Under the pieces are notes generated by a model, which saw nothing but the letters and a program-made list of their open reading frames with translations, was not told the DNA's origin and ran no database searches. Both the position numbers and the translations under genes were made by a program. A stretch of 43,747 nt of DNA from an uncultured bacterium (lineage in GTDB: Bacteria > Bacteroidota > Bacteroidia > CAILMK01): the NCBI GenBank assembly GCA_903829945.1, contig CAIKRV010000093.1, positions 1 to 43,747 on the forward strand, given 5' to 3'. This document shows positions 5,234 through 9,700 of the stretch, piece by piece (position 1 is the first letter of the stretch; the number at the start of each line of letters is the position of its first letter).

Positions 5234-5773
5234 ATGAAAACATTAACCGCAACGCTCACTTTAGTAATCTTAACCTCAATTTTAAATATTTCAACTTCAA
5301 GCGCCAATCATCTTAAAAAAGGAAGCAAGTTATTTAACTTAGAATTAAACGACTTCCAAAAGAAGGATGTGGAAATAATGAATTTTGTTGCCGGTAATAA
5401 ATATACCGTAATAACTTTTTTCGCTGATTATTGTTCTCCATGTATTCGCGAGTTAGATAGCATCAATAAAAAATACCTTCATTGGAAAAATAATTTCAAT
5501 ACCGGTTTTGTATCCATATGTGTTAGCAATGATCAAAACATTAATCGTATTAAAGAAAGAACTGAAAATAACAATTGGAGCTTTCCTGTATTATTAGATA
5601 ACCGTGGTGAAGCAATGAATATTTTAAGAATTGCTCATATCCCTTATACCATCATTGTGGATGAAAACGGTAAAATTGTTTATCAACAAGATGGTTATAG
5701 TGTTGAAAATATATCCAATATCGAAAAAATTATTTCAGAGGGCGTAAGCATCGAAGCCGTTGCCATAAAATAA
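5234..5773 (+). CDS. Exported TlpA-like thioredoxin-fold protein
   Basis: 179 aa with a signal peptide (1-24, ending SSANH). The mature part is a thioredoxin-like fold of the TlpA/AhpC-TSA group: TVITFFADYCSPC with the redox pair C67-S-P-C70, and IAHIPYTIIVDENGK with the cis-proline about 80 residues later. Such proteins reduce or isomerise disulfides in the periplasm, often for cytochrome maturation or oxidative defence (family knowledge); the specific partner is not evident. It stands alone, preceded by a spacer with an inverted repeat, 14-bp direct repeats and a leader hairpin, and followed by a strong terminator, so it is probably a single regulated unit. Confidence 0.88.
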   Translation: MKTLTATLTLVILTSILNISTSSANHLKKGSKLFNLELNDFQKKDVEIMNFVAGNKYTVITFFADYCSPCIRELDSINKKYLHWKNNFNTGFVSICVSNDQNINRIKERTENNNWSFPVLLDNRGEAMNILRIAHIPYTIIVDENGKIVYQQDGYSVENISNIEKIISEGVSIEAVAIK

Positions 5774-5895: not shown

Positions 5896-7299
5896 TTATT
5901 TTCTTTCATTTTGTTGAGGCTCTTGCCTTGGTGCCGGCCTGCTTTGTTGAGGTCTGTTTTGCTGTGGTCTGTTTTGCTGTGGTCTGTTTTGCTGTGGTCT
6001 ATTTTGCTGTTGTTTAGGCGCTGTCCTTTGTTGCGCAGGCGCTTGATTACGTTGATATTGTTGAGGCCTAGCTTGTTGTGCAGGTGCTTGTTCCCTTTGT
6101 GCCGGAACTTGCGGTTGCTCTCTTGGTGCTTGTGGTCTTTGTGCAGGTTCCTGCGGACGCTCCATCGGTTGTTGCGGACGTTCCATCGGTTGTTGAGGTC
6201 GCTCCATCGGTTGTTGTGGTCGCTCCATCGGTTGTTGAGGACGCTCTATGGGTTGTTGAGGACGCTCTGCCGGTCTTTGGGGTTCACCTTGTCTATTAGG
6301 TTCATTTTGAGGCGGTACCCTTCTAATATTTTCCCTTTGTTCAACTTTGGCAGGAGCTGGTGCAGGATGTGCGGCATCTACCCTTCCAAAAGATGGACGA
6401 TATAAATTTATTTCGTTGTTATTTAATTGTTCCCCCGGATGGTGGCTTTCTTTAAAAGGCATTACACGGACATCTCCATGAGTAACTTGACGCACTTCTT
6501 GTACATCCGGACCGCTAATATATCTTTGATGTCTTTCTCTATCCTCATAAGAATTACGTATATATTCAGAAGAATGTATATATCTATCATTGTCACCACG
6601 TGGTCGGTAATAACCATAAGGCCTATCAGAATTAATATAACGATCTTCTAAGAAAGTCCAACGATAAGCAGGGCATTCCCATCTGCCTTGTTCATAAAAT
6701 GCAACGGTAATGCCCGGGCCTAATGGAGCCCAACCATAATAACCCGGAGAGCGTCTCCAAGCTACCCATGCCGGTCCCCAAACATCATCAGGAATCCAAT
6801 ACCATCCTACAAAATCATCAAATTGCCATCTTCCATAGTGAAAAGGGGCCCAACCCCAAGGATACTCAGATGCCCAAGTCCAACCATATTCAGTATATAC
6901 CCAATGTCCGGCAGTTGCATAAGGCATAAAACCAGGGGCTACTTCAGGGATCCAAACATAGCCGTATTGCGGATTATTTATCCAATGGCCATAAGAACTC
7001 AAATTATCATAAAAGATTTGAAAATTGACATTTTGCTGATACGCTCCATTGTTGGCAGCTGCATATCCTCCATTGTCTTGACCATAATTTTGTGGAGGAT
7101 AATTATCATTTTGTGGAGGATAATTCTGCTGTTGTTGCGGTGGGTAATTTTGTTGTTGCGGTGGATAGTTCTGCTGTTGCGGATAATTAGCACTCGCAGA
7201 AGGATAATCATTCGCATTATAAGTTCTTGGCACTGCCACTACACAAGAAAAGCTTGCAAATGCGAAAGAAATCATTATTAGGTAAAAAAGGTTTTTCAT
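5896..7299 (-). CDS. DUF6600 / YXWGXW-type envelope protein with Pro/Gln repeats
   Basis: 467 aa, probably exported; a hydrophobic N terminus ends in ASFSC (C19), a possible lipobox. Residues ~30-75 are Q/N/Y/P-rich with QQNYPP repeats. Residues ~92-235 form the Trp/Tyr/Gly-rich DUF6600 domain (SYGHWINNPQYGYVWIPEV, WGWAPFHYGRW, GPAWVAWR), known from Bacteroidetes and Proteobacteria without assigned function. The C-terminal half is low complexity: five ERPQQPM-type heptads, then QQNRP pentads, ending basic (PAPRQEPQQNERK). Pro-rich tails of this kind often lie in or across the cell wall (inference). Repeats are near-identical at DNA level, so length may vary between strains. It is monocistronic: own -7 box upstream and strong terminator downstream. 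Confidence 0.8.
   Translation of the reverse strand: MKNLFYLIMISFAFASFSCVVAVPRTYNANDYPSASANYPQQQNYPPQQQNYPPQQQQNYPPQNDNYPPQNYGQDNGGYAAANNGAYQQNVNFQIFYDNLSSYGHWINNPQYGYVWIPEVAPGFMPYATAGHWVYTEYGWTWASEYPWGWAPFHYGRWQFDDFVGWYWIPDDVWGPAWVAWRRSPGYYGWAPLGPGITVAFYEQGRWECPAYRWTFLEDRYINSDRPYGYYRPRGDNDRYIHSSEYIRNSYEDRERHQRYISGPDVQEVRQVTHGDVRVMPFKESHHPGEQLNNNEINLYRPSFGRVDAAHPAPAPAKVEQRENIRRVPPQNEPNRQGEPQRPAERPQQPIERPQQPMERPQQPMERPQQPMERPQQPMERPQEPAQRPQAPREQPQVPAQREQAPAQQARPQQYQRNQAPAQQRTAPKQQQNRPQQNRPQQNRPQQNRPQQSRPAPRQEPQQNERK
5951..6010. repeat. Four tandem 15-bp units coding QQNRP
   Basis: Units at 5951-5965, 5966-5980, 5981-5995 and 5996-6010 (GGTCTGTTTTGCTGT, one base different in the last). They lie inside the 3' end of the DUF6600 gene and code for its pentapeptide array. 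Confidence 0.9.
6158..6262. repeat. Five tandem 21-bp units coding ERPQQPM
   Basis: Five 21-bp units with few base changes between them, each giving one heptad of the DUF6600 protein tail. Near-identity implies recent expansion or homogenisation. Confidence 0.9.
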
Positions 7300-9215: not shown

Positions 9216-9239
9216 ATGCTAAAAATTGCCTTAAAAGAG

Positions 9240-9268
9240 AAAAAGGGCGAAACTTGTGGTCTCACCCT
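9240..9268 (-). terminator. Intrinsic terminator of small RNA A
   Basis: In minus-strand RNA: AGGGUGAGAC (9268-9259), loop CACAA, GUUUCGCCCU (9253-9244), then a run of U to 9240. Ten pairs include two G-U wobbles. Confidence 0.85.
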
Positions 9269-9330
9269 CTTCCATTGCCAAAATATCAAAACTACAACTG
9301 CCTATGAAAAAATCTTATTTTCAACTTAAT
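9240..9330 (-). ncRNA. Candidate small RNA A (about 91 nt)
   Basis: Predicted minus-strand transcript from about 9330 (5 bases after a perfect -7 box) to the U-tract at 9240. The part from 9311 down to 9240, upstream repeat edge included, is identical to element B at offset +297; the 74-bp identical block is 9238-9311. The transcript ends in a 10-bp hairpin. On the minus strand all ten positions pair (two as G-U), while on the plus strand the same two positions would be C-A mismatches. That orients the RNA. It contains no credible coding frame. The function is unknown; a regulatory small RNA is my inference. I do not recognise an Rfam family. Confidence 0.6.
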
Positions 9331-9334
9331 GATT

Positions 9335-9342
9335 CAAAGTTA
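9335..9342 (-). promoter_or_regulatory. -7 box TAACTTTG of small RNA A
   Basis: Perfect TAnnTTTG at exactly the same place in the element as the box of copy B (offset 297), inside an otherwise diverged 59-bp segment. That conservation argues it is used. No good -33 TTTG is visible. Confidence 0.6.
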
Positions 9343-9370
9343 ATCTACATTATTTATTAAATAAATACTA

Positions 9371-9404
9371 AAATTTCAAAATTCTTACGCTTTCAAAACT
9401 AAAT
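9371..9404 (-). promoter_or_regulatory. Conserved upstream block of small RNA A
   Basis: This block is shared with 9668-9700. On the minus strand it has two TTTTGAAA copies with a 17-bp period around GCGTAAGA. It would lie about -41 to -74 from the predicted start, where an activator could bind. The regulator is unknown; the neighbouring response regulator is a candidate. Confidence 0.5.
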
Positions 9405-9536
9405 TTATAATTTGAAAACATTTTTAAAGGCTTGGGTTTTCCTAATTGTATATTGTTGATATTATATATGTTAGTAATATATTTCAGGCACTTAATAAAA
9501 ATTCAAAATCTTTAAAAACTTCGACTCCTAAAAAAG

Positions 9537-9565
9537 AAAAAGGGCGAAACTTGTGGTCTCACCCT
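9537..9565 (-). terminator. Intrinsic terminator of small RNA B
   Basis: Identical hairpin to that of element A: arms 9556-9565 and 9541-9550, loop 9551-9555, U-tract 9541-9537. A second run of U follows one base later. Confidence 0.85.
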
Positions 9566-9627
9566 CTTCCATTGCCAAAATATCAAAACTACAACTGCCT
9601 ATGAAAAATGTGTTAAACTTAATTAAC
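9537..9627 (-). ncRNA. Candidate small RNA B (about 91 nt)
   Basis: Same design as element A, shifted by exactly 297 bp: perfect -7 box, a diverged 5' part of about 18 nt, then a 3' part identical to A down to the terminator. The identical block in this copy is 9535-9608. The 5' ends of the two RNAs differ, so they could have different targets or conditions while sharing the 3' body. The copy lies upstream of A on the same strand and would be transcribed separately because its terminator is intact. Confidence 0.6.
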
Positions 9628-9631
9628 GATA

Positions 9632-9639
9632 CAAAGATA
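9632..9639 (-). promoter_or_regulatory. -7 box TATCTTTG of small RNA B
   Basis: Perfect TAnnTTTG at the position equivalent to the box of element A. The two variable bases differ between copies while the six consensus bases are kept. Confidence 0.6.
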
Positions 9640-9667
9640 TCACCTATTGAAGCTACTTAAAAGGACG

Positions 9668-9700
9668 AAATTTCAAAAATCTTACGCTTTCAAAATTAAT
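9668..9700 (-). promoter_or_regulatory. Conserved upstream block of small RNA B
   Basis: Near-identical to 9371-9404: TTTTGAAA, GCGTAAGA, TTTTGAAA with the same 17-bp period. The sequence between this block and the -7 box is not conserved, so the block is conserved on its own account. Confidence 0.5.

Follow-up and report, generated by a model that had tools for sequence, protein, structure and literature searches.

The window analysed here, a 43,747-nt stretch of DNA from an uncultured bacterium, probably carries two minus-strand sibling genes, at 9232–9329 and 9529–9626, whose predicted products are non-coding RNAs of about 90–97 nt. Judged by sequence, this is a previously undescribed and narrowly distributed multicopy RNA family, although of a kind already known. 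The siblings are likely to act in trans, where they would repress translation through pairing of an invariant core at the A-rich translation-start regions of mRNAs.

Anatomy of the tandem copies

A repeat search of the window finds an 80-nt direct repeat with one mismatch, whose arms at 9232–9311 and 9529–9608 have a spacing of 297. At the same spacing, a further 32-nt block recurs with 94% identity (9371–9402 versus 9668–9699). Such duplication is beyond chance by far. An earlier note on this DNA had claimed a 74-bp identical block (9238–9311 and 9535–9608), which is exact and lies inside the 80-nt repeat with its single mismatch. The TAnnTTTG boxes that it placed at equal relative positions stand on the minus strand at 9335–9342 and 9632–9639, and its conserved upstream block is the 32-nt repeat.

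The duplicated family that the note proposed extends to seven copies across three genomes of one family, with one common anatomy. The window genome (G000) has two copies, a sister species of the same genus g1 (G001) has two, and a member of the same family but of another genus, g3 (G003), has three. All seven share the same layout on the same strand, in the order of upstream box, TAnnTTTG, short variable leader, 30-nt core, terminator hairpin and U, so the box and the terminator are kept in 7/7, as the check suggested in the note would have it. The features of the two window copies are as follows.

9371–9402, minus strand: upstream box of copy 1 (repeat, seven-copy alignment and motif count)
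9335–9342, minus strand: −7 element of copy 1, TAACTTTG (motif scan and seven-copy alignment)
9303–9329, minus strand: leader of copy 1, GAAAA...UUUUC, a weak hairpin (fold)
9273–9302, minus strand: core of copy 1 (seven-copy identity; centroid folds)
9239–9273, minus strand: terminator hairpin of copy 1 (fold; compensatory changes), with a U-rich tail at 9232–9238
9668–9699, minus strand: upstream box of copy 2, TTTTGAAAGCGTAAGATTTTTGAAATTT (94% repeat; nearly gap-free against the −7 box in seven copies)
9632–9639, minus strand: −7 element of copy 2, TATCTTTG (TAnnTTTG in the same column in 7/7 copies)
9600–9626, minus strand: leader of copy 2, GUUAA...UUAAC, a weak hairpin (97% identical to the proximal G001 leader)
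9570–9599, minus strand: core of copy 2, GGCAGUUGUAGUUUUGAUAUUUUGGCAAUG, the putative target-pairing region (seven-copy identity; unpaired in most centroid folds)
9536–9570, minus strand: terminator hairpin of copy 2, with a 15-bp stem and a loop of 5 nt (fold; compensatory changes), with a U-rich tail at 9529–9535

The minus strand folds at −25.3 and −25.2 kcal/mol in the two copies (z of −2.5 and −3.5 versus shuffled sequence), and the plus strand, at −10.4 and −10.5 kcal/mol (z about 0), folds no better than shuffled sequence. The minus strand and the independent non-coding transcripts claimed previously are supported. The hairpin had been described as ten pairs formed only on the minus strand. 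Its two inner pairs are indeed G-U on the minus strand and C-A on the plus strand, but there are 15 pairs in all, not 10, since the stem extends further where the A/G-rich 5′ side meets the U run.

Across the seven copies, the hairpin has 13–15 bp and is followed by U. Its sequence is remade with the pairing kept, such that 100% of the cells are paired and two-sided changes occur at 7 of the 15 pairs. None of 500 shuffles is as good, and slid controls are far lower. The alignment was fitted to the structure and so favours the covariation count, while the same stems can be read unfitted. The changes mark the hairpin as an intrinsic terminator under structural selection.

The predicted transcripts start near 9329 in copy 1 and 9626 in copy 2, as placed from the −7 box. 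The product length of about 91 nt given earlier agrees with the 90–97 nt predicted here by counting from 5–7 nt past the −7 box to the U tract, but the fixed ends at 9240 and 9537 do not stand, as the 3′ end may fall anywhere in 9232–9240 or 9529–9537.

It is extremely unlikely that either strand is instead a small protein gene. The g1 copies do have, read by eye, a 14-codon frame that opens with the ATG at the end of the core, but the G003 copy on contig C140 lacks that ATG and the other G003 copies do not keep the frame. On the plus strand, no frame is preserved among the copies either, and the C140 copy lacks an ATG at the matching position. Moreover, the hairpin changes follow pairing, not codons, and the non-coding claim holds in that the homologues keep the hairpin and not a reading frame.

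The upstream box (TTTTGAAAGCGTAAGATTTTTGAAATTT-like) lies some 40 nt ahead of the −7 element. Its motif TTTGNNNNNGTAAGANTTT has two occurrences in the window, one at each of these copies and none elsewhere, against an expectation of 0.01. Most copies have no TTG at −33, as read from the aligned sequences, and hence we infer an activator-dependent promoter. The upstream box is probably the putative activator site, and the regulator encoded beside the pair could be the protein that binds it. Possibly, a wider regulon stands under the same activator.

In G000, G001 and G003, GTAAGA precedes TAnnTTTG at a distance of 39–42 nt more often than does its reversed control (9/1, 13/7 and 13/5). We do not claim this spacing as a regulon motif; many of the additional matches resemble standard promoters or coding sequence. 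On G003 contig C195, two GTAAGA and TAnnTTTG promoters lie 777 bp apart and precede small secreted-protein genes.

The 30-nt core GGCAGUUGUAGUUUUGAUAUUUUGGCAAUG is identical in 7/7 copies, except for the last base in one. The last G of the copy-2 core doubles as the first stem base. The core is unpaired in most centroid folds, and weak alternative pairs appear in the proximal G001 copy and the C140 copy of G003. Identity over 29–30 positions by neutral descent is out of question, because the fourfold-degenerate sites of the neighbouring response-regulator gene are saturated (43% identical to G001 and 30% to G003).

The leaders range over about 27–45 nt in the seven copies, vary in sequence and, in several cases, fold into small hairpins in the centroid folds. 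The earlier note had contrasted an invariant 3′ body with 5′ ends of about 18 nt that differ between the copies as variable seed ends. The body is identical, but the 5′ leaders are still 75% alike. The seed reading is not supported, since by far the strongest constraint falls on the internal 30-nt core and the leaders are not free to vary. The distal window copy and the proximal G001 copy share 97% identity in their leaders, against 72–75% between positional orthologues, and such identity across species argues against a freely varying leader seed.

The two leader types (window 9303–9329 and 9600–9626) are swapped in position between the window species and G001. The swap seems to reflect recombination between the tandem copies with exchange of leader and body. 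The promoters may have stayed in place during this exchange, their identities of 74–78% being not decisive.

Distribution and gene context

A search of the window's own genome finds the two window copies and no others. G001 has its tandem pair in the same gene context, likewise at a spacing of 297 bp, and the three copies of G003 lie on three contigs at three unrelated intergenic sites. A covariance model of the four g1 copies recovers all three G003 copies with E values of 1e-11 to 1e-14. Beyond the window genome, real copies occur in only 2 of 198 relatives, namely G001 and G003.

Covariance searches were also run on 12 order-level and 395 class-level genomes, overlapping samples that cover about 400 different genomes; they otherwise give weaker matches, and those listed are ordinary terminators without the core. 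In the class, 44 of the 395 genomes were matched, and the matches listed from outside the family (nearly all the strongest) are ordinary terminators. A scan of contigs used a pattern ending in GG that is blind to G003-like copies, so the distribution beyond the examined genomes is under-sampled. IMG/VR viral contigs, searched with the exact core, phages and plasmids have no exact or near match. No Rfam family reached the gathering threshold, and at E values up to 10 there were chance matches only. The RNA family looks confined to a small lineage, of which the sample includes few genomes.

In genus g1, the tandem pair is flanked on one side by a PhoB-like response regulator with its histidine kinase and on the other by a GNAT acetyltransferase; the regulator follows immediately downstream on the same strand. 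In G003, valS neighbours one copy, a sodium/solute symporter another and an aconitase/glycosyltransferase region the third, as named by eye from translations, and the orthologous regulator of G003, 77% identical, has no copy beside it. Therefore, the link to a two-component operon drawn earlier is not conserved and amounts to adjacency in g1 only. As autonomous genes, the copies occupy four unrelated intergenic loci. In the window, the two-component operon is closely followed, at 5896–7299, by the gene of a DUF6600 protein whose long repeat tail is rich in proline and glutamine.

This placement bears also on the reading that the copies are not independent genes but a cis element or a spreading repeat, such as a leader of the regulator operon, a REP/MITE-like element or a CRISPR/tracrRNA-like one. 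The position of the g1 pair, upstream of the regulator on the same strand, would suit it, and so would the GTTGTAG contained in the core. GTTGTAG is the start of some CRISPR repeats. However, the copies of G003 stand beside three other sets of genes and not beside its regulator, every copy has its own promoter and terminator, no further copies and no array exist in the genomes at up to three mismatches, and a phage or plasmid match is absent. The reading is very unlikely and in the main refuted. As to tracrRNA or CRISPR RNA in particular, we rejected it, as the genomes have no array-like matches to the core or the core halves.

Pairing at translation starts

The start regions of Bacteroidota are A-rich and have no Shine-Dalgarno sequence (PMC6847099). 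Those of the genomes examined are also A-enriched, and the core complement AUUGCCAAAAUAUCAAAACUACAACUGCC resembles an A-rich start region. We compared the core with 200 dinucleotide-shuffled cores per genome. The mean of the best ten duplexes is −22.7 versus −20.3 ± 0.8 for the shuffled cores at the G000 start regions (n = 495) and −20.8 versus −18.8 ± 0.8 at the G003 ones (n = 183), the real core being stronger than 199/200 shuffles in each case. These statistics come from sampled stretches of about 0.7 Mb in G000 and 0.5 Mb in G003, with about 850 genes and mechanically called start codons.

The excess disappears when the targets are antisense start regions (fraction 0.54) or the interior of coding sequence (0.13). 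Between the core halves, the 3′ half is the most enriched (0/120 shuffles), both near the start codon and upstream at −45 to −18, and because of the latter, promoter sequence (TTTGCC) near short 5′ ends may contribute. Long complementary sites are not above control genome-wide (10 versus 8 control matches in G000). Altogether, the in-silico support for start-region pairing is moderate.

A candidate site before ridA-coaX in G001 (contig C159, L079 2245–2269) pairs at −32.9 kcal/mol and reaches the AUG of a 29-codon ORF. The syntenic candidate in the window genome (contig C71, L080 5234–5256) pairs at −22.2 kcal/mol, 3 nt from the AUG of a 20-codon ORF. Other candidates in the window genome precede a 1017-aa secreted protein (C76, −20.2) and a secreted protein whose AUG is inside the site (C18, −22.9). 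In G003, they are a RecR-like protein (−24.9) and a 53-aa hydrophobic peptide with a bipartite match (C253, L247 1311–1550, −24.2). At the best candidate sites, the ORFs are either short or not the same in the two genera, and secreted proteins are not enriched among the best start-region duplexes (Fisher 0.35 and 0.80).

Several sequence details accompany these sites. Some 340 bp ahead of ridA-coaX, a conserved intergenic stretch has the core-complementary site directly before ATGAAAAC, the start of the short ORF, and ridA apparently has its own TACCTTTG promoter further down. The 53-aa peptide (MKSRFFYFVFFVLTFFIYCFLYLI...) is preceded by ATTGCCAAAATA and AAACTACAAC, which are both halves of the core complement, in order. 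At position 5327 of G003 contig C64, one stretch has both sense-like (TTTTGGCAAT) and antisense-like (CAAAACTACAACTA) pieces of the core.

Such sites could also be read as those of an antisense RNA for one or a few small-peptide mRNAs, resembling a type I antitoxin unlinked to its target. The full 30-nt core would then be one long antisense that silences them in trans, with the copies under one activator. The strongest sites do extend over almost all of the core and directly border the AUG that opens a short ORF, as with the 29- and 20-codon ORFs before ridA-coaX in both g1 species and the bipartite match of the 53-aa peptide in G003. Against it, the peptides are unlike between the genera, and the RNA genes and the candidate short ORFs are unlinked, which leaves this reading improbable. 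In known type I pairs, the antitoxin typically overlaps or adjoins the toxin gene. We rejected a classical type I antitoxin, since the candidate short ORFs neither overlap nor adjoin the RNA genes.

In the favoured mechanism of translational repression by sibling sRNAs, a regulator would bind the upstream box (GTAAGA motif) and switch on all copies together; the joint activation is suggested because the promoters are mostly without the −33 TTG. Once folded, the RNA would have a leader and a terminator flanking a single-stranded core. This core, which is rich in U, would then pair in trans with the A-rich, Shine-Dalgarno-less start regions of several mRNAs and thereby block ribosome binding. 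Having several copies would increase the amount of RNA or bring different signals together.

The pairing may come under the influence of an RbpB-like protein, as proposed from the lack of Hfq and the single RRM-1 protein in these genomes. No Pfam-detectable Hfq was found in G000, G001 and G003. There is one RRM-1 protein per genome, and that of the window genome (contig C86, L267 1495–1896) has a Gly-rich tail and is RbpB-like.

The main rival takes the core as mainly a protein-binding site, for example of the RRM-1 protein, and the RNA as a sponge or titrator. The invariant single-stranded stretch of 30 nt is longer than a seed requires, and a sole RRM-1 protein without Hfq would fit such a role. 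There is a precedent, too, in that RbpB of Bacteroides binds single-stranded regions of sRNAs via a 41-nt motif (PMC11697453). However, the start-region pairing beats the shuffled cores, and 2–3 copies per genome are few for a sponge. We consider this rival possible but rather unlikely. For start-region silencing, the known constant core, the clear promoter box and a named candidate target make it directly testable in an uncultured lineage.

Relation to known small RNAs

Very few sRNA families have been described in Bacteroidota outside the gut genus Bacteroides. Within it, GibS and FopS have a conserved single-stranded stretch, an intrinsic terminator and pairing at start codons (PMC7366714, PMC11697453), and by analogy the window RNAs probably work like them. 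They too are intergenic sRNAs, FopS being multicopy, in an Hfq-less relative that has an RRM-1 protein in the cell, and they combine a single-stranded conserved stretch with a terminator. Their promoters resemble those of the window copies, with a TAnnTTTG-type one for FopS and a motif for an unknown regulator for GibS. The start-codon pairing is a further likeness, only predicted for the window RNAs.

There are differences as well. The constant stretch of the window RNAs is internal, 30 nt long and about 27 nt from the predicted start, whereas that of GibS and FopS is at the 5′ end (R1 seed). The copies number 2–3 here versus 12–15 in the FopS/GibS family. The Rfam models of FopS/GibS gave no match, the presence of FopS in Rfam being assumed from the paper's deposit statement (PMC11697453). 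Hence, with no Rfam match and an internal constant stretch, we do not file the window RNAs as members of that family.

Qrr, OmrA/OmrB and AbcR are sibling sRNAs of proteobacterial families that have no sequence relation to the window RNAs and are mostly Hfq-dependent. They resemble the window RNAs in a common core with divergent flanks and in several promoters that feed one pairing region (PMC4211561). Closer in taxonomy, Rfp18 of Flavobacterium is also a conserved independent Bacteroidota sRNA thought to pair with mRNAs (PMC9723704). By its description it is set apart, as its pairing is predicted via a third stem-loop and normal protease mRNA levels require it (PMC9723704).

PrrF1 and PrrF2 of Pseudomonas are tandem, near-identical sibling sRNAs, each with a promoter box and a terminator (PMC4211561). 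They differ from the window RNAs in being unrelated in sequence, of another phylum and Fur-controlled, and Hfq is absent in the window lineage. Depending on the species, the PrrF genes stand side by side or far apart (PMC4211561), the same contrast as between g1 and g3 here. Thus, the tandem-here, dispersed-there history of PrrF is repeated in another phylum.
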